Assembly: GCF_017571475.1 (NCBI RefSeq) | Contig: NZ_JAGETW010000002.1 | Location: 62,001-126,000, forward strand | Reading direction: 5' to 3' | From: Thiomicrorhabdus sp. 6S3-12 | Lineage (GTDB): Bacteria > Pseudomonadota > Gammaproteobacteria > Thiomicrospirales > Thiomicrospiraceae | DNA length: 64,000 nt | In this document: positions 1,885 to 45,336 of the stretch, one piece after another | Layout of the letters: the number at the start of each line of letters is the position of its first letter | How positions within the stretch are numbered: position 1 is the stretch's first letter | Position numbers and translations under genes: made by a program | The notes under the pieces: model-generated | Told to the model about the DNA's origin: nothing | Database searches by the model: none | The model's input: only the letters and a program-made list of their open reading frames with translations

Positions 1885-4800
1885 TTATTTCTTCAAGGCT
1901 AATAGGCACGGCGTAACGATCAGGGTCAGCAGCGTTGAAAAGGTCAGGCCGCCGACAATCGCGCTGGAGAGCTGTACCCACCACTGTGACGACGGTGCGC
2001 CGAAAGCGATACTCTGCCCGGGAATATCAATAGTCATCGCCAGAACCATCGGCATGAGCCCGAGAATGGTCGTCGTGGTCGTCAGCAGCACCGGACGCAT
2101 ACGCTGTGACAGCGTCAGCTGAATCGCGGCAATTTTCTCCATCCCTTCTAACCGGTACTGATTATAAGTATCAATCAGCACGATATTATTATTGACCACT
2201 ATTCCCGCCAGAGCGATGACCCCGATTCCGACCATCACCACCCCGAAAGGATTCTGAGTAATCAAAAGTCCGAGCAAAACCCCGGCCGTGGAGAAAATGA
2301 TCGCCGTTAGGATAACCCCGGCCTGATAGAAACTGTTGAACTGCGTCACCAGAATCACAACCATCAAAAACAGCGCACTGGCAAACGCTTTCATCAGGAA
2401 ATCCGCCGCTTCCTTCTGATCTTCATCCTGCCCCTTGAAGCGAATGGCGACATCGGATTGCAAAGGCTTGTTCTCCAAAGACTGTTTCAGCAGATTCAGC
2501 TGCTGATCAACCTGAAATCCGGGAGGGACATCCGACTGCACACTCATTACTCTCTGTCCGTTGACCCGCTCGATCAAAGAAGTTTTCTGCCGCGGATGGA
2601 ACGCCGCAAAGTTGGAAAGCGGCACCGGTCCGTAAGCGGTCGGAATTTTCAGATTCATCATCTGTTCGAGATTACGCTCCTGCTCCGGAAAACGCAGACG
2701 TATATCCAGTTCTTCTTCGGCATCGTCCGGCTGATAGGAAGCGATCTTTATTCCGGAGGTCAGCATTTGAATGGTATTACCCAACGTGGCGATATCGACC
2801 TGATAACGGGCCGCCTGTTCACGATCGACTCTTAAATGCCATTCGATACCCGGAATCGGTCGCGAATCTTCAATGTCGATAAACCCGCCAATCTCCGCCA
2901 TACGCTGACGGACTTCCTCAACTCCGGACTTCAGCGACGCAAATTCCGTCGCCGAGAGCTCGACCTGAATCGGCTTACCGCTGGATGGCCCGTTATCCTG
3001 CTTGCGCACCTGCGCCTGAATCCCCGGTAGCAGAGCAAGCCGTTGGCGTATATCCTGAATCACCTGATCGGCTGCCGGGCGCTCTTGCCAATCGCGCAAT
3101 TCCAGCTGGATAATACCGATCAGATCCACCGGCACATTATGCAACTGACTGGCGTCATTATAGGTTTTGGCATACAACGTTTTATAAACCGGAATATCCA
3201 GAATCGCCGCTTCCACTCTCTTGAGCAGCTCGTCCTTTTCATATACCGACAGATCGCCTCTGGCCTGTACCTGAACCTGAATGAAGTCCGGTTCAACTTC
3301 CGGGAAAAACTCGACGCCCTTGCCGAATTGAGCATAGGCGACATAGGAAGCAGCCATAAACAGCGTCGCAATCAGCAGCACTTTTTTCGGATGACTCAAC
3401 AACGGCGTAATCGCCTTAATGTACAGTTTGGTCCAGCGACCGACAGAATGTCCCTGTACTGTCTCGCTTGCCACTGATAAATGCTCTTCAGAGTGACCTT
3501 CTAACGGCACTTTATCCGCATTGCCTGATACCACGGATCCGAGCACCGGAATAAAAATCAACGCCATTAACAAGGATGCGAGCAGTGTCAGAATCACGGT
3601 AATCGGCAAAAACTTCATGAACTCACCGACTACACCCGGCCAGAACAGAAGTGGAAAGAATACGCTCAAGGTTGTTGCCGTCGAAGCGATAATCGGCCAG
3701 GCCATCCGCTTCGCTCCTACGGCATAAGCTTCTTTCGGTGCCATCCCTTCGGCCATTTTGCGTTGCGCCAGCTCCACCGTAACAATCGCGCCGTCAACCA
3801 GCATACCGACCGAGAGAATCAGACTGAACAGAACGATAATATTCAGCGTGTAATCCATGCTTTGTAACGCCAGTATGCCGGACAGGAAAGCGCCCGGTAT
3901 CGCCAGCCCCACCAATACCGCCGGTTTGATTCCCAAAGCCGCGATCACGACCAGCATGACCAGAAAAATGGCCGTCAGCACATTATTCTCCAGATCTCCG
4001 AGCAGGGCTTTAATCTGCTCGGACTGGTCCTGCATAAAGTGCACGCTCAAAGCTTTCGGCCAATCCTTCTGCTTTTCCGCTACAACATTTTTGACTTGAT
4101 CGATGGTTTCAATGATATTCGCGCCGACGCGTTTGGTCACTTCCAGCACCAGCGCCGGTTCACCGCCGACTCGTGCGAAACCGTCCGGATCTTTATAGGT
4201 GCGTCGTACCTGCGCCAGATCGCTGAAAGTCACGACCGTTCCCTGATGCGTTTTGATCGGCAGCTCCAACACATCCTGAATATTTTCGATAACACCGGGA
4301 ACCTTAAAGACCATGCGCCCGGAACCGGTATCCATTGCACCGGCCGGCACCAGCTGGTTATTACGGCTCAGAAAACTCACCACTTCATCAAAAGAGAGGT
4401 GATAGGTTTCCAGCGTTTCCGGTTCGATAATGACTTCCATCATCTCTTCCCGGTCACCGCCGATCTCCACTTCAAGCACGCCGCTCAGAGATTCCAGTTC
4501 GTCTTTTAAATCCTGCGCCAGACGGACCATCTCTCTTTCCGGAATTGGTCCGGACAGGGAGAGTGAAATGACCGGAAACAGCGCCACATTAATTTCGTTT
4601 ACTGTCGGTTCAAGCGTATCGGGCGGCAAGTTGGCTTTGGCCAGATCGACTTTTTCGCGCACATCCAGAAGCGCCTGATCAATATCGGCACCGGCGGAAA
4701 ACTCCAGCAGAATCGAACCGTAATTTTCTGCCGCCGTCGCCGTCATCTCTTTTAAACCATCCAGAGACTGGAGTTCTTTCTCCATCGGTTTAATCAACAG

Positions 4801-4983
4801 CCTTTCCGCATCTTCCGGGGAAATTCCGTCATGTACCATCGAAACAATGAATATCGGGATCGGGACATCCGGAGAAGACTCTTTCGGTATCGACAGGTAG
4901 GCGTAAGCACCGGCGACGATCAGCATAATAAAGGTCAGCAGAACCACCCGGCTACGATTGAATGCGGCATCAATAAAACCCAT
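1885..4983 (-). CDS. RND efflux transporter, inner-membrane pump
   Basis: 1032-aa AcrB/HAE1-type proton-driven pump, normal length for the family. It starts MGFIDAAFNRSRVVLL, with the first membrane helix followed by the motif IPKESSPDVPIPI. It has two six-helix blocks and two large periplasmic loops. The TM4 motif reads GMLVDGAIVTVE, with one of the two usual proton-relay aspartates replaced by Gly, as in many pumps paired with a single adaptor. The ATG at 4983 is chosen because it lies 4 bases after the stop of the adaptor gene; an in-frame extension to 5052 would run into that gene. It forms an operon with the adaptor. No TolC-type channel is nearby, so an outer-membrane partner elsewhere is assumed. 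Substrate unknown. Confidence 0.92.
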   Translation of the reverse strand: MGFIDAAFNRSRVVLLTFIMLIVAGAYAYLSIPKESSPDVPIPIFIVSMVHDGISPEDAERLLIKPMEKELQSLDGLKEMTATAAENYGSILLEFSAGADIDQALLDVREKVDLAKANLPPDTLEPTVNEINVALFPVISLSLSGPIPEREMVRLAQDLKDELESLSGVLEVEIGGDREEMMEVIIEPETLETYHLSFDEVVSFLSRNNQLVPAGAMDTGSGRMVFKVPGVIENIQDVLELPIKTHQGTVVTFSDLAQVRRTYKDPDGFARVGGEPALVLEVTKRVGANIIETIDQVKNVVAEKQKDWPKALSVHFMQDQSEQIKALLGDLENNVLTAIFLVMLVVIAALGIKPAVLVGLAIPGAFLSGILALQSMDYTLNIIVLFSLILSVGMLVDGAIVTVELAQRKMAEGMAPKEAYAVGAKRMAWPIIASTATTLSVFFPLLFWPGVVGEFMKFLPITVILTLLASLLMALIFIPVLGSVVSGNADKVPLEGHSEEHLSVASETVQGHSVGRWTKLYIKAITPLLSHPKKVLLIATLFMAASYVAYAQFGKGVEFFPEVEPDFIQVQVQARGDLSVYEKDELLKRVEAAILDIPVYKTLYAKTYNDASQLHNVPVDLIGIIQLELRDWQERPAADQVIQDIRQRLALLPGIQAQVRKQDNGPSSGKPIQVELSATEFASLKSGVEEVRQRMAEIGGFIDIEDSRPIPGIEWHLRVDREQAARYQVDIATLGNTIQMLTSGIKIASYQPDDAEEELDIRLRFPEQERNLEQMMNLKIPTAYGPVPLSNFAAFHPRQKTSLIERVNGQRVMSVQSDVPPGFQVDQQLNLLKQSLENKPLQSDVAIRFKGQDEDQKEAADFLMKAFASALFLMVVILVTQFNSFYQAGVILTAIIFSTAGVLLGLLITQNPFGVVMVGIGVIALAGIVVNNNIVLIDTYNQYRLEGMEKIAAIQLTLSQRMRPVLLTTTTTILGLMPMVLAMTIDIPGQSIAFGAPSSQWWVQLSSAIVGGLTFSTLLTLIVTPCLLALKK

Positions 4984-4987
4984 AAAA

Positions 4988-6037
4988 TTACTGCTCCGCC
5001 GCCTGGATATTAACCGTTTGTCCGGCCTGTACAAATCCTTGCCCGGTGACAATCAGCTGCGCTTTCGGCGGCAAGCCGGTAATGTAAATACCGTCTTTTA
5101 CCGCCTGAATCACCTGAACCGGATAGAACTCGACTTCGCGGGTTGAATTGACGGTTTTCACCCCCATTACGCCCTTGTCGTTCAAGGTCAGCAATGCAGA
5201 GGAAATAAAATGCGCCTGCACCTGCATTTTCGGAATTTCCGCAGTGACGCTAATCCCGCTCGGAATATCCGCGGTATCCGGCAATAGAATCTCGACTCGG
5301 AAAGTTTTGGTATTTTCATCGGCTTTAGGCGAAATAAAACGCACCGTGCCATGCAGCACCTCTCCGGTCGCCAGTCTGACCTGTGCCGGCGATTGCAGTT
5401 TCAGATACGGATATTCGGTTTGCGCAACCGAAACCGATGCGACCATGGAGTGGGTATCGATCACTTCAAACAAAGGATTCCCTTTGAAGATATAATCGCC
5501 CAACTCGACCTTCTGTTCGGCAATAATTCCGTCGAAAGGGGCTCGGACTTCAAGTTGATCAATCTCCTGACGCAGAATATTCTCTTCCGCCTTCGCCGCC
5601 TCATACGAAGCCAGAAGCTCATCTATCTGTGACTGGGCACTGAAACCGCGATTCTTGAGATCTTTAGTCGCCTGGTATTTATTTCTGGTTTCCAGTGTTT
5701 TCGCCTTAGCGCGTTTAAGCTTAACCGCCCGATCTTCTATGCTCAGTTTGAGCAATAATTCACCGCTTGCGACCTTATCCCCTTCAAGTTTGAAAATTTT
5801 TTCCACCTTGCCGTAGGTTTCGGCCAAAACCTGAGTTTCGCGAAACGGCAGCAGATCACCGTGCGCCTTGATAAAACTGGTCACCACTTCGGCATTCGAC
5901 GTTCGGGTTTCAACGCTAGCAAGCGGGATCTTTTTCGCCTCGTCGGCAGCGGTTTGGTCATGATTCTGATAGCCGAGCGCCATCCAGACAATCATCAGCA
6001 ATAAAAGGCCCGCCGAAACGGTAAAGGAGTGTTTCAT
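4988..6037 (-). CDS. RND efflux periplasmic adaptor (membrane fusion protein)
   Basis: 349-aa HlyD/AcrA-type adaptor linking the RND pump to an outer-membrane channel. An N-terminal signal or anchor helix (about 5-22) is followed by a lipoyl half (LPFRETQVLAETYGKVEKI), a helical hairpin of about 60 residues rich in Lys/Glu (coiled coil), the second lipoyl half (VRAPFDGIIAEQKVELGDYI) and beta-barrel and membrane-proximal domains. No lipobox cysteine is seen, so it is probably anchored by the N-terminal helix. It is the first gene of a two-gene operon, with 4 bases to the pump start. About 135 bases of upstream DNA separate it from the SulP gene terminator; I see no regulator in the locus. Confidence 0.92.
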   Translation of the reverse strand: MKHSFTVSAGLLLLMIVWMALGYQNHDQTAADEAKKIPLASVETRTSNAEVVTSFIKAHGDLLPFRETQVLAETYGKVEKIFKLEGDKVASGELLLKLSIEDRAVKLKRAKAKTLETRNKYQATKDLKNRGFSAQSQIDELLASYEAAKAEENILRQEIDQLEVRAPFDGIIAEQKVELGDYIFKGNPLFEVIDTHSMVASVSVAQTEYPYLKLQSPAQVRLATGEVLHGTVRFISPKADENTKTFRVEILLPDTADIPSGISVTAEIPKMQVQAHFISSALLTLNDKGVMGVKTVNSTREVEFYPVQVIQAVKDGIYITGLPPKAQLIVTGQGFVQAGQTVNIQAAEQ

Positions 6038-6112
6038 GCAAAAAATTCCACAAAAATATTGAAAGGCATAAACAGCATAAGGAGTTCGCGAAAAATAGGC
6101 AAATCCTAATAC

Positions 6113-6150
6113 AAAAAAACCCCGCCGTCGGAGACTTTCGGCAGGGTTTT
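6113..6150 (-). terminator. Rho-independent terminator of the SulP gene
   Basis: On the minus strand CCCTGCCG pairs with CGGCGGGG (6139-6146 with 6120-6127, one G-U pair), followed by seven T (6113-6119). It lies 23 bases past the stop of the SulP gene and separates it from the efflux operon. Confidence 0.9.
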
Positions 6151-6172
6151 CAGCAGAACAGCTTATTGGAAA

Positions 6173-7756
6173 TTAAGCTTCTTTCTTACCGCTCATCGAA
6201 ACATGATAATGCGGATCCTCGGAGACATTGATTTCAATCAGGTCTCTGGCGTCATGCAGCAACTTCTGACATTCCGGACTCAGGTGTTTCAACACCAGCT
6301 TCTTGCCGGCCGCTTTGTACTTCTGCGTCAGGTTATCAATCGCTTCAATCCCGGTATGATCATAAACACGTGAATACATGAAATCGATCTGCACGCAATC
6401 CGGATCGTTCTTCGGATCGAAGCGGTCAATAAAGTTTTTCGCCGATGCAAAAAACAGCGGTCCCTGAACCCTGTAGGTTTTTACCAGTTTGCCGTCAATA
6501 ATCTCTTCCGAAGCATCCAGCAGGATACGTTGCGCATGCTGCCAGGCAAATACCAGCGCGGCAACGATGATCCCGGCAATAACCGCCACCGCCAGATCGA
6601 AAATCACCGTCAGCGCCGTAACCAGAATCATCACAAAAGCGTCCGCTTTGCTCATGCCGCGCATAATATTCCAGCTTGACCAGTTAAAGGTGGCAATAAC
6701 CACGAAGAACATCAGCCCGACCAGAGCCCCGATCGGCACCATTTCAATCAGCGATGAAGCGACCAGTACGATAACCAGCAGACCGGTAGCAGCGGTAATT
6801 CCTGACAGGCGTCCGGTACCGCCGGATTTGACATTAATCATCGACTGTCCGATCAGAGCACAGCCTCCCATGGTACCGAAAGTACCGGCAGTACAGTTTG
6901 CCGCACCCAAAGCGATACACTCTTTATTCGCTTTACCACGGGTTTCGGTAATGTCGTCAATCAGCGTCATCGTCAGCAGCGATTCAACCGAACCTATAAT
7001 GGTCAGGATAATTGCATACGGCAGGACAATCCACAGAGTCTCCAGCGACCAGAAACCTTCCGGAAGCGTGGTAAACCAGCTCATCCCCTGAAATCCGCCT
7101 TCGGTACCGTCACCGTAAACCAGTGACTCCAATGTACCGGAGACCGCCGCTCGATCGCCAACGGTCACGGCGTTGATATCAAACATCACGACCACAACGG
7201 AGACCAGAATAATCGCCGCCAGCGCGGATGGAATCGCTTTGGTCAGACGCGGCAGCAGATAGATGATCGCCATGGTCGCGGCAATAATCGCCACCATAAT
7301 ATTCAGACTCTCCCCGGTCAGCCACTGGCCGCTGGAATCCTTAAACTGGGTAAACTGCGCAATCAGAATAATCAATGCCAGACCATTGACGAATCCGAGC
7401 ATGACCGAACTGGGCACCATACGGATAAAGCGCCCCCACTTCATAATCCCGATAAAGATCTGCATGGCGCCCATCATAATGACCGCCAGGAAAAGATAAG
7501 AGGCGCCATGTTCCATTACCAGGTGCATCATCACGACAGCCAGAGAACCGGCCGCAGCAGTAATCATCCCCGGACGCCCGCCGAAAATCGCGGTAATCAT
7601 GCCGACGATAATCGCCGCGTACAAACCGACCAGCGGGTGTACTCCGGCGACAAAGGCGAAAGCAACCGCTTCAGGCACCAGTGCCAAAGCAACGGTAATC
7701 CCCGAAAGGGTATCGTTTTTATAGGTTCGCCAATCAAATGGCTGGGCTGAACTCAT
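6173..7756 (-). CDS. SulP-family anion transporter
   Basis: 527-aa SLC26/SulP permease. Members move sulfate, bicarbonate or other anions, often with Na+ or H+. The N-terminal about 400 residues form the multi-helix core, with the conserved start region LSGITVALALVPEAVAFAF. A cytoplasmic STAS domain covers about 430-515 (VQIDFMYSRVYDHTGIEAI). GAGGAGT lies just before the ATG at 7756. It is a single-gene unit with its own terminator. In autotrophic Thiomicrospira-type bacteria, SulP proteins are candidate bicarbonate importers. Sulfate or bicarbonate cannot be told apart from sequence alone, and no carbonic anhydrase domain is fused here. Confidence 0.9.
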   Translation of the reverse strand: MSSAQPFDWRTYKNDTLSGITVALALVPEAVAFAFVAGVHPLVGLYAAIIVGMITAIFGGRPGMITAAAGSLAVVMMHLVMEHGASYLFLAVIMMGAMQIFIGIMKWGRFIRMVPSSVMLGFVNGLALIILIAQFTQFKDSSGQWLTGESLNIMVAIIAATMAIIYLLPRLTKAIPSALAAIILVSVVVVMFDINAVTVGDRAAVSGTLESLVYGDGTEGGFQGMSWFTTLPEGFWSLETLWIVLPYAIILTIIGSVESLLTMTLIDDITETRGKANKECIALGAANCTAGTFGTMGGCALIGQSMINVKSGGTGRLSGITAATGLLVIVLVASSLIEMVPIGALVGLMFFVVIATFNWSSWNIMRGMSKADAFVMILVTALTVIFDLAVAVIAGIIVAALVFAWQHAQRILLDASEEIIDGKLVKTYRVQGPLFFASAKNFIDRFDPKNDPDCVQIDFMYSRVYDHTGIEAIDNLTQKYKAAGKKLVLKHLSPECQKLLHDARDLIEINVSEDPHYHVSMSGKKEA

Positions 7757-7865
7757 AATGACTCCTCAAATTTTTAATTATTCTAAACTGGCGCAAATTC
7801 TAACAAAAAGCCGCTAGAATTACCGGTTATTCAAAAACTTATCGTAAATTCTAAAGGGAGTTTTT

Positions 7866-7994
7866 ATGTGGATCGAGCATATCGGCACAATCGGACTGGT
7901 GGCGGTCGTCGTTCTGGTCGTGGCACACTTTGCCCTGCACCTGTTCTTCAAAGCGCAAAAGAAGAAGCAAAAAAACCGTAAACGGGAGCAATAA
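7866..7994 (+). CDS. Small single-pass membrane protein, 42 aa
   Basis: Short ORF starting MWIEHIGTIGLVAVVVLVV: one hydrophobic helix (about 7-28) and then a strongly basic tail of about 14 residues rich in Lys, Arg and Gln. AAAGGGAG lies 6 bases before the ATG, a strong ribosome binding site, and a terminator hairpin follows immediately. This is the arrangement of a real small gene. The positive-inside rule puts the basic tail in the cytoplasm. It is divergent from the SulP gene (109 bases between starts). No family recognised. Confidence 0.65.
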   Translation: MWIEHIGTIGLVAVVVLVVAHFALHLFFKAQKKKQKNRKREQ

Positions 7995-8028
7995 AAAAAC
8001 CGCATCCGGATTTGTTCCGGATGCGGTT
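7995..8028 (-). terminator. Terminator of ppnP, possibly bidirectional
   Basis: Perfect 13-bp stem 7998-8010 / 8016-8028 with loop TTTGT. The T-run is on the minus strand (A-run at 7993-7999), so it mainly ends ppnP transcription. The hairpin also directly follows the small plus-strand gene. Confidence 0.88.
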
Positions 8029-8053
8029 CGGACGGTGTCGCTACAAAGCGGAA

Positions 8054-8371
8054 TTATTCCGTAATGTAGGTACAGCAGTAGTCGGAAACTTCTTTAACTT
8101 TGATGCCGAACTTGGAGTTGGCAGGCACCTCGAAACTATCACCGGCTTTAATGGTTTTCCACTCGGTTTCCCCCGGAAGAAGAACGTCCACTTCGCCGGC
8201 CATAAATTCCATGATTTCCGCCGCTTCGGTACCGAACTCATAATCACCCGGCATCATAATGCCCAGTGTCTTGTAAGAACCGTCTTCGAAAACCACTTTG
8301 CGGCTGGTCACCTTACCGTCGAAATAGATATTCGCTTCACGCACGACGGTTACATTATTAAATTCAGACAT
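8054..8371 (-). CDS. ppnP: Pyrimidine/purine nucleoside phosphorylase PpnP
   Basis: 105-aa single-domain cupin of the PpnP (YaiE, DUF1255) family, which phosphorolyses several purine and pyrimidine nucleosides to base and ribose-1-phosphate. It resembles E. coli PpnP in the segments [42 protein letters not shown] and [14 protein letters not shown] good AAGGA site precedes the ATG at 8371. gloA lies 27 bases upstream on the same strand, so the two may be co-transcribed; a strong terminator follows. Cytoplasmic salvage role inferred from the family. Confidence 0.9.
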
Positions 8372-8398
8372 CTGTTTTTCCTTGTTGTCTTCGTTTGC

Positions 8399-8794
8399 TT
8401 AAGTACGGACGTGATCCGCACCGATAAATTCAATCTGATAGCCATCCGGATCTTCGGCAAAAGCGATAATGGTCGAACCGGCATTCATCGGCCCCGCTTC
8501 ACGGATAATTTTGCCGCCGGCGTTTTTGACATCTTCGGCCGCTTTATAGACATCCGGCACTTCAATCGCGATGTGTCCATACCCTTCGCCCAGATCATAA
8601 GAATCCACGCCCCAGTTATAGGTCAGTTCCAACACGGTATTTTCGTCTTCGTTGCCGTAACCCAGAAACGCTAGAGTGAACTCCCCTTGCGGATAATCCT
8701 TCTGACGTAGCAGCTCCATACCCAATACTTTGGTGTAAAACTCAATCGAGCGTTCCAGGTTCCCTACTCGCAACATGGTGTGTAATAGACGCAT
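8399..8794 (-). CDS. gloA: Lactoylglutathione lyase (glyoxalase I)
   Basis: 131-aa VOC-superfamily enzyme that isomerises the methylglyoxal-glutathione hemithioacetal to S-lactoylglutathione. With the start at 8794 the metal ligands fall at the E. coli positions: His5 ([10 protein letters not shown]), Glu in NTVLELTYN, His in GYGHIAIEV and Glu in [12 protein letters not shown] two codons upstream (8800) is rejected because the GGAGA site sits directly against it but 6 bases from the ATG. Histidine and acidic ligands of this type suggest a Ni-dependent enzyme. Likely first gene of a gloA-ppnP unit. Confidence 0.95.
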
Positions 8795-38166: not shown

Positions 38167-38814
38167 ATGAATTTAGATCAAGCCCGTTTTTTTATGGTTG
38201 AACAGCAAATCCGTCCATGGGACGTCTTAGACCCTAAAGTTCTTGATCTGTTGATGGACACTCCTCGCCACCATTTCGTCAGCGAGTCGCAGCAAGCCCT
38301 GGCTTACAGCGACATCGAACTTCCGATCGGCGAAGGCGAATTCATGATGGCGCCTAAAGTGGAAGGAAAAATTCTTCAAGCCCTTGAAATCAATGAAGAC
38401 GACAGAATTCTGGAAATTGGTACCGGCAGCGGTTACCTGACCGCTCTTCTGGCCTCTCTGGGCCGAGAAGTCACCACCGTTGAACTGCATAAATCACTGC
38501 AGGAAACCGCAAAGACCCGTCTTAAAGAATTCGACAACATCAATTTCCATATCGGCGACGCCAGTCAGGACTGGGCCGACAACAAACAATACGATGTCAT
38601 TGTTTTAACCGGTGCGGTTGCAGAGGTTCCGGAAACCTTCAAACAGAAACTGAATATCGGCGGTCGTCTGGCTGTTATCAGCGGTAAATCTCCAGCGATG
38701 GAAGCCGTTGTCATTACCCGTGTCAGCGACAACCAGTTCAACACGGAATCGCTTTTCGAAACGGATATGCAATATTTAAGCAACAGCCAGCCGAAAAAAT
38801 CTTTTAATTTCTAA
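38167..38814 (+). CDS. pcm: Protein-L-isoaspartate O-methyltransferase
   Basis: 215-aa SAM-dependent enzyme that repairs isoaspartyl residues in aged proteins. MVEQQIRPWDVLDPKVLDLL at the start, the PCMT signature FMMAPKVEGKILQALEI (the usual 'IS.P.M.A' site reads MAPKVEGK) and motif I ILEIGTGSGYLTALLASLG. Single gene ending in a terminator that isolates it from the respiratory operon. Shorter than the TolC-linked pcm copies but of normal length. Confidence 0.88.
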   Translation: MNLDQARFFMVEQQIRPWDVLDPKVLDLLMDTPRHHFVSESQQALAYSDIELPIGEGEFMMAPKVEGKILQALEINEDDRILEIGTGSGYLTALLASLGREVTTVELHKSLQETAKTRLKEFDNINFHIGDASQDWADNKQYDVIVLTGAVAEVPETFKQKLNIGGRLAVISGKSPAMEAVVITRVSDNQFNTESLFETDMQYLSNSQPKKSFNF

Positions 38815-38859: not shown

Positions 38860-39150
38860 AAGTAAACTAAATTTACTTAGCAAAAACCCTTAAAAAATAC
38901 CTTTTTTTTTGACCTGACACAGGTTTCTCTCCGATTTATTCGCAACAACTCAATTACTCTCTCTTCCTGTATTGCATAAATCAGATACTTTTGTCTAAAC
39001 TCAGGCCTTAAAGTGTCGTAATTTTACGCATTTACGTAAGTAATGCCTACCATATAAGTTTACTTATATGCGCATCAATAAAACTTTTTAGTTTTAAAAA
39101 CTAGGTACAGCACTTTTACAATAGCCTCCTCAATAGTGCACTTTGCACTA
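38860..39150 (+). promoter_or_regulatory. Palindrome-rich control region of the sulfide respiration operon
   Basis: 367 gene-free bases lie before 39182 and contain four inverted repeats. These are AAGTAAA/TTTACTT (38860-38866 / 38872-38878), CATATAAGT-TT-ACTTATATG (39051-39070), TAGTTTT-A-AAAACTA (39089-39103) and TAGTGCA-CTT-TGCACTA (39134-39150). A likely -10 TACAAT is at 39117-39122, with a weak -35 inside the third repeat. The half-site TTACTTA or its complement recurs (38872, 39036, 39059). None matches an FNR, Crp or ArcA site I know. Confidence 0.55.
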
Positions 39151-39181: not shown

Positions 39182-40636
39182 ATGGACTTGATTAGCCTCT
39201 ATCCGACTTGGTATGAACCAACAGTGGGATCCGGTTGGGTTGTTGCATTGATTGCAACTTTCCACGTACTGGCCTCCCACACTTCTGTTGGCGCAGCCAT
39301 GCTCTTCGCTTATCTTTCTCATAAAGCCTACCGCGAAGACCGTGAAGACCTTCTGGACTTCGTTAAGAAATACGGTCTTTTCTTACTGGTCTTCACCTAT
39401 GTTGCCGGTTCCATTACCGGTCCGGGGATCTGGTACTCTACAACCGTCGCCAGCCCGAACGGAATCGGCGCTCTAATTCACTCATTTGTATGGAAATGGG
39501 CGACTGAGTGGGTCTTCTTCGTGATCGAGGTTGTCGGGGTCTACATGATTGTTTACCTGGTTGGCCGCGTCGACAAACGCACGCACATGAAAATCTCCGT
39601 GATTTTCGGTATGGCGTCACTGGCAACCATGTTGATTATCGTCGGTATCCTGTCGTTCATGATGGTACCTGGTAAAGAACAATGGTTCGCAGACGGCGGT
39701 TATCTGAACGGTTTCTACGGCACTAACACCTTCGCACAACTGGGTATGCGTATGGCATTCATGTTCACCATGACAGCAGTTGTCGGTGGTATCGTCATTG
39801 CCGGCATCAAAGACCCTGCTTTCAAGAAAGAGATGGCGCGTAAACTGGGTTGGCTGGGGATTATCTCAACCCTGATCGGTGCCGCGATGTTCCAGTGGTA
39901 TCTGACTTCCGTTCCGGATCAGGCACTACTGGTTATGGAAAACCGTCTGCCGGATTACTTCGTACCAAGCATCATGATTGTGCTTGCCGGTACGCTTGCT
40001 TATTTCATTATCACCATGCTTCGTCCGCAAATGATCGTTCAAGGTTTTGCCGGCGCGATGACTATCATTATCCTGGTCGCAGGTCTATGGCCTGAAGAGA
40101 CCGCACGTGAATCTATGCGTAAGCCTTGGGTCGCTGGTCAATATGTGTACTCAAACCAGGTAATCGGTAAAGACGTTCCAGGTATGGATATCAAATCTCA
40201 GCTTCCGACAATCGAGAAAGTCGGTATTCTGAAAGCACATCCATTTACCCCTGACCACCTGAAAGAAGTGAACAACGGCAATATGATTCAGGCAGGTGAA
40301 TTCATCGCGATGACCTACTGCTCGAACTGTCACTCTCCAAGCGAAACCGGTATTCGTCCGTTACACCGCTACTTCCCTGAAGGCGTATCTCAGGAACGTG
40401 TTGCACAGTACGTTAAAGGTGTTCTGACAACCGGTAATATCGCTTATATGCCGAAAATGCCGATGCTGGATTCCGAAGCGGAAGCTTTAGCCGCCTATCT
40501 GGTACTGAACAATGACGGTGGTCAAGCGGCAGTAACCGCAGCTATCGATACTGAAATTGAACAACGCGAACGCGCTCTGGCCGAGCAAAAAGCTCAAGAC
40601 AAAGTTGCTGCCGTTGATCTACAGGAGGGCAAATAA
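39182..40636 (+). CDS. CydA-like (cytochrome bd superfamily) subunit with fused haem c domain
   Basis: 484-aa membrane protein. About nine helices (1-305) resemble CydA: His28 (ATFHVLASHTSVG) matches the b595-ligand region, Met265 (YFVPSIMIV) sits where CydA has FRIM with its b558 Met ligand, and MRKPW (312-316) stands at the GRQPW position. The Q-loop is missing and the second b558 His is not evident, so quinol oxidation is unlikely. The C-terminal about 120 residues are a cytochrome c domain with CSNCH (Cys380, Cys383, His384). This fits the cytochrome-c-linked (OR-C-like) branch of the bd superfamily. AAGGA precedes the ATG. It opens a six-gene operon; the stop overlaps the next start by one base. 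Confidence 0.82.
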   Translation: MDLISLYPTWYEPTVGSGWVVALIATFHVLASHTSVGAAMLFAYLSHKAYREDREDLLDFVKKYGLFLLVFTYVAGSITGPGIWYSTTVASPNGIGALIHSFVWKWATEWVFFVIEVVGVYMIVYLVGRVDKRTHMKISVIFGMASLATMLIIVGILSFMMVPGKEQWFADGGYLNGFYGTNTFAQLGMRMAFMFTMTAVVGGIVIAGIKDPAFKKEMARKLGWLGIISTLIGAAMFQWYLTSVPDQALLVMENRLPDYFVPSIMIVLAGTLAYFIITMLRPQMIVQGFAGAMTIIILVAGLWPEETARESMRKPWVAGQYVYSNQVIGKDVPGMDIKSQLPTIEKVGILKAHPFTPDHLKEVNNGNMIQAGEFIAMTYCSNCHSPSETGIRPLHRYFPEGVSQERVAQYVKGVLTTGNIAYMPKMPMLDSEAEALAAYLVLNNDGGQAAVTAAIDTEIEQRERALAEQKAQDKVAAVDLQEGK

Positions 40637-41883
40637 TGGATGCTCAACAAGTCGCTCAAGTTACTGAGATGATGTATGCCCTGCGCAACCCTGCAGGGAT
40701 CCCGACCTTTCCGATTATCTTTATCGGTCTAGGTGTTCTAACCTTTGCCCTGCATATTCTGTTTGTGCAGTTAATGCTGGGAACCTCTGCCATTACGCTA
40801 TATGGCGCTTTCAATAACAATGCATACTGGCGTCGCCTGGGTGCAGCTATGCTGGAAATCTCGAAAGTATCGGTTTCCGTTGCCATCGTCGTCGGTGTTG
40901 CACCCCTGCTGTTTGTTCAGGTTGTCTACGATCCGCACTGGTACACCTCAAACGTACTGTCTGCAGACTGGGTTATCGCCTTTATCGTTATTCTGATTCT
41001 GGCCTACTGGGCAATGTACTACTACTATTTCCAGAACGGTAAAAACCAGGATAAAACGCTTCAACCTAAATCTCGCTGGTCGATGATTACCAGCCTGATT
41101 CTGATGTTGGTCGTCGGTTTCATTATGCACAGCCTGACTTCGCAGATCCTGCACCCTGAACTGTGGAAAGAGTGGTACATGCAAAACGGTAAACTGGACT
41201 ATTCCGGTACCCAACTGCATGCCTACAATATCTGGCGTTATGCGTTCTTCATCAGCATGGCAATTCCGGTAACAGGAGCAATGCTGGTTACTTACCGTCG
41301 CTTTAAGTCGGTTCGTGAAGATGCCGATCACGACTACCTGAACTGGGCCGCTGAAGTCGGTAAAAAATGGATCAAAGTCGGTTCTGTTATCTCAACGGTT
41401 CTGTATGTTGCATGGATGGCGACACTGCCTGAAACAGCAGGTAACTTCGCAACTTCTGTATGGGGCATCCTGGGTGGCGTTGCCGTAATCGGTTACGCAC
41501 TATGGGCTCAACTGCGTCTGAAAGGCGAAGCGCGATTCTGCAGCTACATGGCTCTACCTATGGCGCTGGTTATCGGCCTTATTGTCGCAATCTCCCGCGA
41601 GATGCTTCGTTACGACATTCTTAACGGCTTCTTTAACTACAACTTCATGGACTACAAGATTGTTATGGACTGGTATTCCACCGGCCTGTTCTTCCTGACT
41701 TTCGCGATCGTTGGCGGTGTTGTACTTAGCTACTTCCTGACCATCGCATGGAAATCCGGACAGACCGTCGGCGTCTATACACCAGGTGCAACGGTTAACA
41801 AACTGGGTACCCTTTCTATCTGGATCGTAGCACTATGGATCGTTCAGTTCTTCGTAGTCGGTTTCTACGTCTGGGCACAATAA
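40636..41883 (+). CDS. Second CydA-like membrane subunit (CydA')
   Basis: 415-aa protein with about ten helices. The region LTFALHILFVQLMLGTSA aligns by eye with the first helix of CydA (AMYHFLFVPLTLG), so His39 could be a haem ligand. The GRQPW motif is absent (SREMLRYDIL in its place), and no haem c motif is present. This suggests a paralogous, non-catalytic partner of the preceding subunit, as in the CydAA' type complexes described in the bd superfamily, rather than a CydB. It is translationally coupled to the first gene (TAATG) and followed 12 bases later by the monohaem cytochrome. GGAGGG before the ATG. Confidence 0.75.
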   Translation: MDAQQVAQVTEMMYALRNPAGIPTFPIIFIGLGVLTFALHILFVQLMLGTSAITLYGAFNNNAYWRRLGAAMLEISKVSVSVAIVVGVAPLLFVQVVYDPHWYTSNVLSADWVIAFIVILILAYWAMYYYYFQNGKNQDKTLQPKSRWSMITSLILMLVVGFIMHSLTSQILHPELWKEWYMQNGKLDYSGTQLHAYNIWRYAFFISMAIPVTGAMLVTYRRFKSVREDADHDYLNWAAEVGKKWIKVGSVISTVLYVAWMATLPETAGNFATSVWGILGGVAVIGYALWAQLRLKGEARFCSYMALPMALVIGLIVAISREMLRYDILNGFFNYNFMDYKIVMDWYSTGLFFLTFAIVGGVVLSYFLTIAWKSGQTVGVYTPGATVNKLGTLSIWIVALWIVQFFVVGFYVWAQ

Positions 41884-41895
41884 AGGAGCAAATAC

Positions 41896-42282
41896 ATGAA
41901 AAAATCGCTAATGATCGGACTCATCACTGCTTCAGCATTCTTCGGTGTGACATCAGCCCAGGCTTCTGGAGCACTGATTCCCCCGGAAGAATTTGCAAGT
42001 GATCCACAGATTCCTGGAAAAATGCTGGGCGACAACTGTTCAGCCTGTCACGGTACGCTTGGACGTTTCTATGATGAATCCATGCCACCTCTAGCAGGGA
42101 TTCCTCGTGATGTTTTTATCAAGTTGATGCAGGACTTCAAAAACGAAGTTCGTCCATCCATTGTTATGAACCACGTTGCTAAAGTCTTTACGGATGCTGA
42201 AATCGAGCGCATGGCGGATTATTTCGCAGCGCAAACAGACCGCCCATGGAAAGAAGAAGATGTCCTTAAAGGAGGCCAGTAA
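41896..42282 (+). CDS. fccA: Monohaem cytochrome c, probable FccA-type subunit
   Basis: 128-aa periplasmic class I cytochrome c. Signal peptide (1 to about 23, ending AQA), haem site CSACH (Cys48, Cys51, His52), and the segment MPPLAGIPRDVFIKLMQDF; a Met in the C-terminal half (MADYF or VMNH region) would be the sixth ligand. Its stop overlaps the fccB start by one base, the normal fccAB order, so it is the likely haem subunit of flavocytochrome c. The dihaem cytochrome downstream is the alternative partner. Confidence 0.85.
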   Translation: MKKSLMIGLITASAFFGVTSAQASGALIPPEEFASDPQIPGKMLGDNCSACHGTLGRFYDESMPPLAGIPRDVFIKLMQDFKNEVRPSIVMNHVAKVFTDAEIERMADYFAAQTDRPWKEEDVLKGGQ

Positions 42283-43580
42283 TGAATAACCTAACACGCC
42301 GTGAATTAATGAAGCGTTTTGGTGCTGCAGGTCTGAGCTTAGGACTGTTCGGGGCATCAAAAGAAGCCTGGTCAAAATCGGCTCCGCATATCGTCATCGT
42401 TGGTGGCGGTATCGGTGGGGTTTCGGCCGCTAAATATCTGCGTATCTTGGACAAGAACGTCAAGATCACCATTATCGAACCGAATAAAGAATATATCTTC
42501 TGCCCGGGTTCAAATGAAGTTTTGAACGACTTCACGTCGATCGAAGAACTAACGGTGAACTACGAAAACATTAAGTCCCGTTACGCCGTCAATGTTATCG
42601 AAGATCTGGCAACAGACATCGATTACAGCGCGAAAAAGGTCAAGACCAAAAACTCCGGCACAATCGCTTATGACAAGCTGATTGTTGCACCGGGGCCTGA
42701 CTATAAGTTCAGCGATATCGAAGGTTACAGCAAAGACTTGGCGGAAGGTGATTTCCCGCATGCATGGAAAGCCGGTCCGCAGACTCTGAAACTGCGTGAG
42801 CAGATTCACTCTATGCCGCAAGGTGGTGTTGTTGCAATCTCCTCGCCTCCGATGCCGTATCGTTGTCCGCCGGCACCTTATGAGCGCGCCAGCTTCATCT
42901 CTGAGTGGCTGACACGTCATAACCCGACGGCAAAAATCCTGATCTTGGATTCCAAAAACAGCTTTACCTTCCGTAAACACTATCTGGACTACTGGACCAA
43001 AGCCCGCGGTTACGGAACCAAAGATGCCATGATTGAGTGGATTCCAATGGAAAAAGGCGGCAAGGTAACTCAACTGGACGCCGCGAACAATACGCTTGTG
43101 ACCGCTGACGGTGAACGCATCAAAGCCGATGTAATCAATATCATTCCGGCGCATACGGCGGGTAAATTCGCACATGCCACCGGCCTGACTCAAGGCAATG
43201 AATGGGTACCGATCGATCCTATGGATTATCGCTCCACCCTTGATAAAGATGTATTTGTTGTCGGTGACGCGACCGAGTCCTCGCCAATGGTTAAAACCGG
43301 TTATCTGGCATCTAACCACGCCAAAGCGGTTGCACAATCGATTGTTAACGAGCTTGCAGGCAAGCCGCCTGTTCAGCCTCTGTATACCAATAACTGTGTC
43401 GCTTTGACGGGTGAAGACTACGGTATGACCATTACCGATACTTTCCGTGTTAAGGACGGCAAGATTATCAAACAGTATGGACACCAGTCGACTGAACTAG
43501 ACAACGATGCACTTCACCACATCCGTGCATCACTGGCCATGAACTGGCAGCGCGCTTTCCGTCGCGACATCTTTGAATAA
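42282..43580 (+). CDS. fccB: Flavocytochrome c sulfide dehydrogenase, flavoprotein subunit
   Basis: 432-aa FAD protein that oxidises sulfide and passes electrons to cytochrome c in the periplasm. A twin-arginine signal TRRELMKRFGAAG is at residues 5-17. FAD-binding motifs: IVIVGGGIGGVSAAKYL (37-53) and VFVVGDATESS (324-334). The two redox cysteines of the family are present, Cys195 in MPYRCPPAPYERA and Cys372 in TNNCVAL. Length is normal. It follows the monohaem cytochrome with a one-base overlap and precedes the dihaem cytochrome. Compared with SQR enzymes, the Tat signal and the YRCPP block favour FccB. Confidence 0.95.
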   Translation: MNNLTRRELMKRFGAAGLSLGLFGASKEAWSKSAPHIVIVGGGIGGVSAAKYLRILDKNVKITIIEPNKEYIFCPGSNEVLNDFTSIEELTVNYENIKSRYAVNVIEDLATDIDYSAKKVKTKNSGTIAYDKLIVAPGPDYKFSDIEGYSKDLAEGDFPHAWKAGPQTLKLREQIHSMPQGGVVAISSPPMPYRCPPAPYERASFISEWLTRHNPTAKILILDSKNSFTFRKHYLDYWTKARGYGTKDAMIEWIPMEKGGKVTQLDAANNTLVTADGERIKADVINIIPAHTAGKFAHATGLTQGNEWVPIDPMDYRSTLDKDVFVVGDATESSPMVKTGYLASNHAKAVAQSIVNELAGKPPVQPLYTNNCVALTGEDYGMTITDTFRVKDGKIIKQYGHQSTELDNDALHHIRASLAMNWQRAFRRDIFE

Positions 43581-43598
43581 TGGTACAGGAGACGATTC

Positions 43599-44315
43599 AT
43601 GAAAATTAAAGCTTTATTAATCGCCACTGGATTAAGTGTTCTAAGTGTCAGTACGGCATTTGCGAGTGGACATGGTCCACAGTCGGAACCTTGGACAATG
43701 AAAGAGTGGTTGGATACGAAAAACCAGATGCCTGAAGGCAGTGTTGAAGCCGGTCAAAAACTGGTCGAACAGGGTTACTGCTATACCTGTCACGGCGTTG
43801 AAGGTAAAAACATGACTCAGGCGACGCCAAGTCTTGCGGGACAGAACCCGGTTTATACCTACAAAATGTTGAAAGACTATAAATCAGGCCGTTTCAATGT
43901 CGATCATAAATCGGATGTCATGGTTCACCTGATGCAGATCTATAGCGATCAGCAGATGGCGGACATGGCGGCTTACTATGCGGCGCAACCTCTGCCTTAT
44001 GCAAACTATGTGACTAAAGACACCGAAGTAGAGCCGGGCATTGTTCGCTTGGCAAACAAAGGCGACAACTCACGTATGATCGTTCCATGTGCTTCATGTC
44101 ACGGTGCTCACGGTGAAGGCGGCTTGAACGAAACGCCTGCCCTGACCAATCTGAGCCCACGCATGTTTGTACGCTACATGGAAGCTTACCGTGACGGTTC
44201 ACGTCATAACGACGTGGTTTCGGGCATGGCGCAGTTTGCCAAAGACCTGACGGATGAAGAAATTCAGGGACTGGCTGATTACTACGCACAGCTTAAACCA
44301 AGAGGAGTGGAATAA
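43599..44315 (+). CDS. Dihaem cytochrome c (c4-like)
   Basis: 238-aa periplasmic protein with a signal peptide (1-22, ending AFA) and two class I cytochrome domains: CYTCH (Cys61, Cys64, His65) and CASCH (Cys164, Cys167, His168). Each half has an internal repeat of the MADMAAYYAAQ / IQGLADYYAQL type, as in c4 and FccA cytochromes. GGAG precedes the ATG at 43599. It could carry electrons between FccAB and the CydA-like complex, or be the true FccA. The stop overlaps the start of the last small gene (TAATG). Confidence 0.9.
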   Translation: MKIKALLIATGLSVLSVSTAFASGHGPQSEPWTMKEWLDTKNQMPEGSVEAGQKLVEQGYCYTCHGVEGKNMTQATPSLAGQNPVYTYKMLKDYKSGRFNVDHKSDVMVHLMQIYSDQQMADMAAYYAAQPLPYANYVTKDTEVEPGIVRLANKGDNSRMIVPCASCHGAHGEGGLNETPALTNLSPRMFVRYMEAYRDGSRHNDVVSGMAQFAKDLTDEEIQGLADYYAQLKPRGVE

Positions 44316-44410
44316 TGAATGGTAAAACAGCAATTATTTGGGGGCTAATCCTGACTTTTGGCTCCGTAGCACTCATGTGGTTATTAAGCACTATTACCGT
44401 GGTTAACTAA
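44315..44410 (+). CDS. 31-aa single-helix membrane peptide, CydX-like position
   Basis: MNGKTAIIWGLILTFGSVAL begins the chain: a short polar start, then one hydrophobic helix (about 6-28) ending TVVN. Its ATG overlaps the preceding stop by one base and AGAGGAG lies about 7 bases upstream, and a strong terminator follows 20 bases after its stop. Small single-helix subunits such as CydX, CydH or CcoQ are regular parts of terminal oxidases, so this is probably a structural subunit of the CydA-like complex. The sequence itself does not match CydX by eye. Confidence 0.75.
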   Translation: MNGKTAIIWGLILTFGSVALMWLLSTITVVN

Positions 44411-44429
44411 GTTACCCTCGGCAACTTAC

Positions 44430-44472
44430 AAAAAAGCACCTTTGGAATATTTCCTCAGGTGCTTTTTTTTAT
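44430..44472 (+). terminator. Terminator of the fcc/CydA-like operon
   Basis: AAAAAAGCACCT (44430-44441) pairs perfectly with AGGTGCTTTTTT (44457-44468), followed by more T. Works in both directions and also serves the converging pirin gene. Confidence 0.93.
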
Positions 44473-44490
44473 TTCTGGATATACGGTGTT

Positions 44491-45336
44491 TCAGGATTTA
44501 ACCAGAGTACCGTCCCGGTAAGCCTGCAACGTCTCCTCGATCTCCTGATTACTGGTCATGACGAAAGGCCCGCGATGGACAATCGGCTCACCGACCGGCT
44601 TCCCTTTGAAAAGCAAGGCCCGGCTGGAAGCTTCTCCCGAAAGGCTTATTTCGCCGTCACCGGCAACAACATCGGAAAACTGCACCAACTGCCCCGCAGG
44701 GATTTCACTGTCACCGTTAACCAGCACTTTACCACCAATCACATACAATGCCAGACTGGCTTCATTTGCCGTGACCGAAAGCGTTGCCGCCCCCTGCCAT
44801 TTCAAATCCGCCAAAGCGGCGTTGCCACTGAGCTTTTGAAATTCAGAACGATATTCCTGACCGTTGAACTGCCAGTTTCCGGCAACGACTTTGACCGCCA
44901 GATCGTCAAGCTGTAGCCATGGCAGACGCGACGCGTCCATATCCTGATACTGCGGCGCCTGATATTTCTCTTCACGCGGTACATTCAACCAGAACTGAAA
45001 ACCCCAAAGCCCGTTCGCATCGACTTTCGGGATTTCCGCATGTTCGATCCCCTGTCCGGTATGCATCCACTGCAAACCTCCGGACAGGACTTCAGAAGCA
45101 TTACCCATCGAATCTTTATGCGCCATACCGCCGTCGATAAGATAACTCAAAGTCTGAATTCCTCTATGCGGATGCACCGGAAAAGCGCCGACGTCATCCT
45201 GTGGAGAAGCCTTTAGCTCATCTAACATTAAAAACGGATCCAGACGCCCGTCGAATAATGCATTACGCTGCAAAGCGACACCCTCGCCGTCCATCGCTGG
45301 TCGAGCCAGAGTCACTTGTCGAATTTTTCTAAGCAT
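44491..45336 (-). CDS. Pirin-family protein
   Basis: 281-aa bicupin of the pirin family. The N-terminal cupin holds FPVHPHRGIQTLSYLIDG and MHTGQGIEHAEIP, with the His/Glu metal set of pirins (iron site; some members have quercetinase activity). The second cupin is degenerate. The C-terminal segment ALLFKGKPVGEPIVHRGPFV is typical. The gene overlaps the end of azoR by 8 bases, forming an azoR-pirin pair often seen under LysR control; a LysR gene is nearby on the other strand. Physiological role uncertain. Confidence 0.92.
   Translation of the reverse strand: MLRKIRQVTLARPAMDGEGVALQRNALFDGRLDPFLMLDELKASPQDDVGAFPVHPHRGIQTLSYLIDGGMAHKDSMGNASEVLSGGLQWMHTGQGIEHAEIPKVDANGLWGFQFWLNVPREEKYQAPQYQDMDASRLPWLQLDDLAVKVVAGNWQFNGQEYRSEFQKLSGNAALADLKWQGAATLSVTANEASLALYVIGGKVLVNGDSEIPAGQLVQFSDVVAGDGEISLSGEASSRALLFKGKPVGEPIVHRGPFVMTSNQEIEETLQAYRDGTLVKS

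Follow-up and report, generated by a model that had tools for sequence, protein, structure and literature searches.

A conserved operon of Thiomicrorhabdus sp. 6S3-12 links the sulfide dehydrogenase FccB with c-type cytochromes and two CydA-like membrane proteins: a putative quinone-independent respiratory module

Introduction

The cytochrome bd superfamily reportedly includes non-quinol branches, OR-C and OR-N, set out by Murali, Gennis and Hemp in 2021, of which we take OR-C to carry haem c. Here, we describe an operon of six open reading frames (ORF1 to ORF6) within a 64,000-nucleotide stretch of the genome of Thiomicrorhabdus sp. 6S3-12 (contig NZ_JAGETW010000002.1, positions 62,001 to 126,000; hereafter, the window). 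The operon combines two CydA-like membrane proteins of this superfamily (ORF1 and ORF2) with the sulfide dehydrogenase flavoprotein FccB (ORF4), a monohaem and a dihaem cytochrome c (ORF3 and ORF5), and a very small protein (ORF6). It is real, conserved, and unusual. With a probability of roughly 60%, we read it as a quinone-independent module in which electrons would pass from sulfide through FccB and c-type cytochromes to a bd-type O2 reductase bearing haem c.

The closest described systems share parts of this gene set. One published excerpt presents OR-N enzymes as likely cytochrome c-fed CydAA' oxidases for which experimental proof is lacking (PMC10839748), and a passage of another paper states that their oxygen affinity is unknown (PMC12342949). 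Like the OR-C and OR-N enzymes, the window pair has a CydA core, no quinol site, and a likely cytochrome c donor, and OR-N also pairs two CydA-like partners (PMC10839748, same excerpt); unlike these branches as described, the window pair is linked to a sulfide dehydrogenase. A bd-like oxidase encoded near nitrite oxidoreductase (NXR) in Nitrospina and Nitrospira is also similar in that, according to part of its description, quinol-binding residues are absent and mono- and dihaem cytochromes and a dehydrogenase lie nearby, whereas that oxidase is described with 14 transmembrane (TM) helices and has nitrite oxidoreductase as its donor (PMC3578206).

The window pair shares with the canonical quinol oxidase CydAB its fold, equivalents of H19 and E107 and possibly of E99, E445, and R448, but ORF1 has no equivalent of H186 and no Q-loop, carries an added haem c, and has a CydA-like partner. 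Similarly, the window FccB resembles FccAB in its domains, both redox cysteines, and a haem c partner gene, but belongs to a clade of its own, and its operon also encodes an oxidase-like pair and a dihaem cytochrome. A Thioalkalivibrio study, in the portion cited here, reports that the surroundings of fccAB lack conserved genes in the genomes compared (PMC6382920). Part of a vent study reports from proteomics that Thiomicrorhabdus respires with a bb3 oxidase (PMC9563475). Our literature search, covering titles and the beginnings of abstracts, returned no account of such an operon; the paper that defined OR-C may mention one. The operon is new as a combination, and its components, FCC and the non-quinol bd branches, were already known.

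Results

Searches with single sequences gave no sign that ORF1 and ORF2 are related to bd oxidases: in Pfam, only the haem c domain of ORF1 was matched and ORF2 matched nothing, and neither membrane protein matched a bd oxidase in the PDB. We built AlphaFold models on alignments of 44 (ORF1) and 43 (ORF2) sequences. For both models, the ten best structure matches were CydA chains, with Z 19.9 to 23.1 and a root-mean-square deviation (rmsd) of 3.8 to 4.1 over 292 to 301 residues for ORF1, and Z 22.4 to 25.5 and rmsd 4.2 to 4.5 over 342 to 353 residues for ORF2. The next fold matches, again for both, were subunits of alternative complex III (Z 15 to 18). We also set the ORF1 profile against 27 CydAs using hhalign. 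A wide ORF1 alignment of 27 rows with distant homologues matched CydA with P 5.9e-7 (probability 92), compared with P 0.0033 for CydB and 0.0096 and 0.063 for reversed controls. ORF2 matched ORF1 with P 1.2e-10 (reversed control, 0.024), and it is mainly through this paralogy that ORF2 is akin to CydA by sequence. All nine sub-cut-off matches to PF01654 in 58 genomes, the source genome included, were ORF1 orthologues or paralogues. In genome G121, one sub-cut-off PF01654 match lies outside the ORF1 family.

By fold and by sequence, ORF1 and ORF2 are members of the cytochrome bd superfamily with a CydA core. The two CydA-like proteins of the preliminary description are therefore borne out by structure and profile comparison, having been invisible to single-sequence searches. 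Structure prediction, which that description proposed as a check, found the CydA fold in both proteins, and profile searches did not place them outside the bd superfamily, the result it had named as refuting. Its further proposal, that a CydA' takes the place of CydB, stands in part. ORF2 is CydA-like and somewhat nearer CydA than CydB, with CydB matched at P 0.18 (wide alignment) and 0.025 (narrow) in hhalign; in Foldseek, CydA chains came out on top for ORF2 with CydB chains close behind.

For individual residues, we used Escherichia coli CydA numbering taken from an alignment to 6rko; in CydA, H19 is a haem ligand, E107 is acidic, E445/R448 belong to the ExGRQPW motif, H186 and M393 bind low-spin haem b558, and K252/E257 lie in the Q-loop. 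H28 of ORF1 aligns to H19, and E116 aligns to E107; H28, E109, E310, and R313 are kept in 27/27 rows, and E116 is kept in at least 90% of them. M160xxP163 aligns to the WMQxP motif of CydA, and E310xxR313 recurs in ORF2 as E322xxR325. E109 sits in an alignment gap, and its comparison with E99 thus lacks an aligned column. There is no conserved histidine in ORF1 helices 4 to 8, so H186, the ligand of low-spin haem b558, has no equivalent; H135, present in at least 90% of the 27 rows, falls in a predicted cytoplasmic loop. After M160, the sole invariant methionine is M423 of the haem c domain, while M194 is present in 90% or more of 44 rows and the profile match stops short of M393. The Q-loop (K252/E257) is absent in ORF1, where the cores of helices 6 and 7 are no more than 19 residues apart. 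ORF1 has eight predicted TM helices with the N-terminus outside, as judged by charge distribution, so its haem c domain would be periplasmic. That domain has one CSNCH motif, and C380, C383, H384, and M423 are all invariant. In our reading, this haem c stands in for b558 as the point of electron entry. The fused haem c domain and the lack of a quinol loop agree with the preliminary description.

We considered whether ORF1/ORF2 could be a cytochrome c:quinone oxidoreductase, with FccB electrons entering at haem c and moving uphill into quinone for CO2 fixation. Autotrophs need reverse electron flow. It is put forward as an alternative role for the Nitrospina bd-like oxidase, also a protein without quinol-binding residues, in a passage of the paper describing it (PMC3578206), and the alternative complex III subunits among the next fold matches favor the same idea. 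We regard it as unlikely, given the missing Q-loop of ORF1, its kept equivalents of H19 and E107, and a locus described below (L203) in which an FccB of the operon clade adjoins a haem-copper oxidase instead. The kept CydA residues and the L203 locus also make it improbable that NO, peroxide, or another small molecule is the acceptor in place of O2, although sequence cannot reveal the acceptor and an excerpt of PMC10839748 describes the OR-N family, a related one, as uncharacterised.

By both diagnostic domains, FCSD_central (2.4e-37) and FCSD-flav_bind (2.3e-9), each above its cut-off, the predicted ORF4 product is a genuine FccB. It has a twin-arginine motif near its N-terminus, and the two redox cysteines noted in the preliminary description (C195 and C372) are invariant in 57/57 aligned FccBs. 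The monohaem cytochrome, the dihaem cytochrome, and the 31-residue helix protein are likewise present as described there. The single-motif ORF3 matches, at 42%, the monohaem cytochrome encoded upstream of another fccB in the same genome. This genome encodes three more FccBs; immediately upstream of each lies a gene with a single haem c motif, and two of these genes are clearly ORF3-like. Because the other fccB genes of the genome follow genes of this kind, ORF3, not ORF5, looks like the FccA-type partner. Relatives of ORF5 lie directly after ORF2 in locus L139 and after COX1 in L203. Of the 50 loci in which the dihaem gene has at least 200 codons, 18 encode an ORF6-like helix protein of 30 to 33 residues near the end of that gene; CydX and ORF6 are alike in size only. 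In four loci (L049, L056, L058, and L077), a different hydrophobic ORF of 57 to 59 residues starts 131 to 143 bases past the dihaem gene.

Using peptides of the window's ORF1, we found 59 ORF1 loci, a collection in which distant relatives are under-sampled. These loci occur in Thiomicrorhabdus, Hydrogenovibrio, Thiomicrospira, Sulfurivirga, Halothiobacillus, Guyparkeria, Thioalkalivibrio, Thiothrix, Thiomonas, Thiobacillus, Marinobacterium, Rubrivivax, Roseospira, and others; the closest ORF1 in the named collection, from Thiomicrorhabdus marina, is 92% identical. ORF2 was detected in 57 loci and fccB in 53, and the remaining six loci end no more than 1.8 kb from ORF1. FccB follows ORF1 in 44 loci and precedes it in seven (six Halothiobacillus-type records and Guyparkeria), and two loci (L022 and L052) have two FccBs each. 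Among 58 genomes, whose lists were compared by eye, 26 of 27 ORF1 orthologues have a same-strand FccB within 5 kb, and the 27th is 735 bases from a contig end; none of four ORF1 paralogues (49 to 52%) has an FccB within that distance. Linkage of fccB and ORF1 is far above chance, and the co-occurrence survey suggested in the preliminary description finds fccB alongside the CydA-like genes, with the misses at contig ends. In less biased samples, ORF1 was matched by 13 of 274 genomes evenly drawn from the class, five of them over the haem c domain only, and by 14 of 398 in a sample of the phylum, where eleven cover only that domain and, the source genome apart, the two others lie in short stretches that contain no fccB.

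Two further observations concern single loci. Thiomicrorhabdus heinhorstiae has tandem copies of the operon (L022:3996-13450), in which both ORF1s are 91% identical to that of the window and the FccBs are 47% and 58% identical. ORF1 of L077 (2817-4009) and ORF2 of L018 (252-1495) are each split into two matches, perhaps by decay or sequencing error.

We examined the history of the linkage with quick trees of FccB and ORF1. In a tree of 87 FccBs, the 54 labelled as operon-linked lie on one side of a single branch (support 98). One row of that tree (op_L052) is in fact the second FccB of L052; a revised tree corrects this row, includes additional FccBs, and omits can_L132, which has a very long branch; a single branch (support 100) then sets the 32 other FccBs apart. 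The 33 "other" FccBs of the first tree comprise 30 loci with the best PF21706 scores and three from the source genome, with one present twice (L131 = L180), a choice in which divergent FccBs are under-sampled. In a tree of 55 ORF1 proteins, a single branch (support 95) divides the 42 that are fccB-linked from the rest; when L134 and L139 are added, it still does so, and support falls from 95 to 87. The ORF1 trees omit 13 of the 59 loci: L021 to L028, L034, and L076, which were dropped since the same sequences were already included under L001 to L020, and the short L069, L077, and L079. Loci L158 and L159 (27 to 28% identical, no fccB) are in no tree. On the ORF1 tree, linkage to fccB requires a single change.

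Locus L139 (4170-7403) contains ORF1 (54%), ORF2 (47%), and a dihaem gene like ORF5 but neither ORF3 nor fccB, and its ORF1 falls just outside the fccB-linked ORF1s as their sister. This gene set hints that ORF1/ORF2 were first partnered by the dihaem cytochrome, with fccB a later arrival.

An absolute linkage of fccB with ORF1/ORF2 was rejected, with L203, L204, L205, and L052 on one side and, on the other, L134 and L139, which contain ORF1/ORF2 and an ORF5-like gene but no fccB. The operon couples two modules that can be separated, and the L134 and L139 counterexamples, along with the lower tree support that they bring, are in keeping with this. The idea that any FccB serves as a partner was weakened by ten other FccB loci (L193 to L202) that have no ORF1/ORF2 in the stretches covered. 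In L204 and L205, the set ORF3-FccB-ORF5 stands by itself. In L203 (2192-7797), an FccB 54% identical to that of the window and an ORF3-like gene are divergent from COX2 and COX1, which are accompanied by a dihaem cytochrome related to ORF5, so that COX genes hold the place of ORF1/ORF2; UbiA-family and CtaA-family genes lie downstream. The L203 FccB nests within the operon clade (support 97, revised tree). Here, the FccB module beside a haem-copper oxidase suggests an equivalent role for ORF1/ORF2, and L203 is possibly a natural swap of terminal oxidase. It is a single case, in a genome that also carries the usual operon, and it is the best hint we have that ORF1/ORF2 is a terminal oxidase.

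The converse arrangement, ORF1/ORF2 without fccB, was seen in four congeners and also on Methylosinus, Thermus, and Agrobacterium plasmids. Loci L135 to L138 hold ORF1/ORF2 paralogues (49 to 52%) of this kind, with haem-uptake, CobW-type GTPase, and FUR-family genes as neighbors in L136. On the Methylosinus plasmid (L141:3247-19365), the pair is flanked by feoB and a methanobactin gene cluster, and pairs of ATP-binding and response-regulator (two-component) genes are near ORF1/ORF2 in L137, L141, and L144. For these fccB-free pairs, we infer a copper-free oxidase that would be useful under copper scarcity. Such neighbors, and the finding of FccB and ORF1/ORF2 each alone, would also fit mere co-regulation, with FccB feeding the general cytochrome c pool and a haem-copper oxidase, and ORF1/ORF2 oxidising cytochrome c in general when copper is scarce or conditions are sulfidic. 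We consider this rather unlikely, because the single branch that parts operon-clade FccBs from 32 or 33 others suggests a dedicated version and because gene order is kept across many genera. The dedicated sulfide chain of the preliminary description needs the correction that the two modules also occur apart.

The layout of the operon in the 2.55-Mb source genome was as first described: six ORFs on one strand spanning 39182-44410, three TAATG overlap junctions (40634-40638, 42280-42284, and 44313-44317), and one strong 3' hairpin (Table 1). The hairpin has a folding energy of -23.6 kcal/mol compared with a shuffled mean of -8.2. A simple terminator scanner did not list it and found five terminator-like sites where 6.1 are expected by chance; promoter-like sites were also at chance level (8 found, 8.5 expected). 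Upstream lies a PCMT-type methyltransferase gene (38167-38814), and downstream is a pirin-family gene (44491-45336) convergent to the operon. An AT-rich upstream block is common to eight Thiomicrorhabdus-type operons, and in the window it includes the palindrome CATATAAGTTTACTTATATG with 9-base arms; the block is possibly a regulatory site. No single palindrome was found to recur across the operon upstream regions.

Table 1. Features of the operon and its putative control signals, in window positions
Feature	Position	Strand	Evidence
ORF1, CydA-like membrane protein with C-terminal haem c domain	39182..40636	+	Fold, hhalign, conserved residues, topology
ORF2, second CydA-like protein, ORF1 paralogue, without haem c motif	40636..41883	+	Fold, hhalign
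ORF3, monohaem cytochrome c, FccA-type by position	41896..42282	+	CSACH; 42% to relative upstream of other fccB
ORF4, FccB sulfide dehydrogenase flavoprotein	42282..43580	+	FCSD_central, FCSD-flav_bind, C195 and C372
ORF5, dihaem cytochrome c	43599..44315	+	Cytochrom_C 8e-19, two stretches; CYTCH, CASCH
ORF6, 31-residue single-helix protein	44315..44410	+	Conserved in 18/50 loci
Terminator-like hairpin with T run	44430..44468	+	Fold of 44405-44475, z -6.4
AT-rich upstream block including palindrome CATATAAGTTTACTTATATG, putative regulatory site	39048..39090	+	Alignment of 8 upstream regions

Discussion

In the respiratory chain that we propose, whose direction of electron flow and haem types we infer, FccB would oxidise periplasmic sulfide and pass electrons to the haem c of ORF3. 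From there, they would move to the ORF5 dihaem cytochrome, the proposed shuttle, and on to the haem c domain of ORF1, which would replace the lost low-spin b558 and feed an active site with two haems, located in the CydA-type core, where O2 would be reduced to water. ORF2 would be a structural or electron-sharing partner in the position of CydB or CydA' in other bd oxidases, and ORF6, as a small subunit, may have a stabilising function. The probable gain would be a copper-free, sulfide-tolerant oxidase with which sulfide could be burnt while the haem-copper oxidase of the genome is inhibited.

This chain is supported by the CydA fold of both proteins, the profile match of ORF1 to CydA, the kept H19 and E107 equivalents, the lost Q-loop and H186, and the invariant haem c ligands, as well as by the fccB linkage with its single change on the ORF1 tree, the L203 swap, and a Pfam search that found no PF01654 match in the source genome. 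Further support comes from the sulfide resistance of canonical bd oxidases, which, in a passage of one study, withstood 58 uM sulfide compared with a half-maximal inhibitory concentration (IC50) of 1.1 uM for bo3 (PMC4815019). We are less sure of a physical supercomplex, in which a copper-free, sulfide-tolerant, cytochrome c-fed bd-type oxidase would be joined to its own FccB as a dedicated sulfide:O2 unit that bypasses the quinone pool. We put this forward tentatively, at somewhat less than even odds.

Several findings weigh against the proposed chain. The ORF1 model has moderate confidence (pLDDT 71.3, pTM 0.59). With close homologues only, the match of ORF1 to CydA weakens to P 5.8e-4 (probability 29), the direct match of ORF2 to CydA is weak (P 0.0036, probability 9), and the alignment of E310xxR313-K-P with E445xxR448-Q-P is also weak (P 0.03). 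Four FccBs outside the operon nest on the operon side of the revised tree: three (L203, L204, and L205) have no ORF1/ORF2 in the stretches covered, and the fourth, in L052, has its own cluster approximately 4 kb from the operon. The L204 set (3033-8404) occupies the same site as the operon in the window, downstream of genes 61% and 65% identical to the NMN transporter and PCMT genes that lie upstream of the window operon. Among the full ORF1 matches in the class sample, fccB adjoins in five of eight (the source genome, G093, G181, G227, and G304, as opposed to G169, G171, and G284). The source genome also has one COX1 match, a haem-copper oxidase that could take the electrons of FccB.

By encoding a donor enzyme, two cytochromes, and an oxidase-like pair together, the operon offers a concrete candidate donor for the non-quinol branches of the bd superfamily, which are known from sequence. 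If the proposed chain is correct, sulfide would have a third route to O2, in addition to the SQR-quinone route and the route from FCC through cytochrome c to a haem-copper oxidase, and sulfur oxidisers that have it could perhaps respire where sulfide inhibits haem-copper oxidases.

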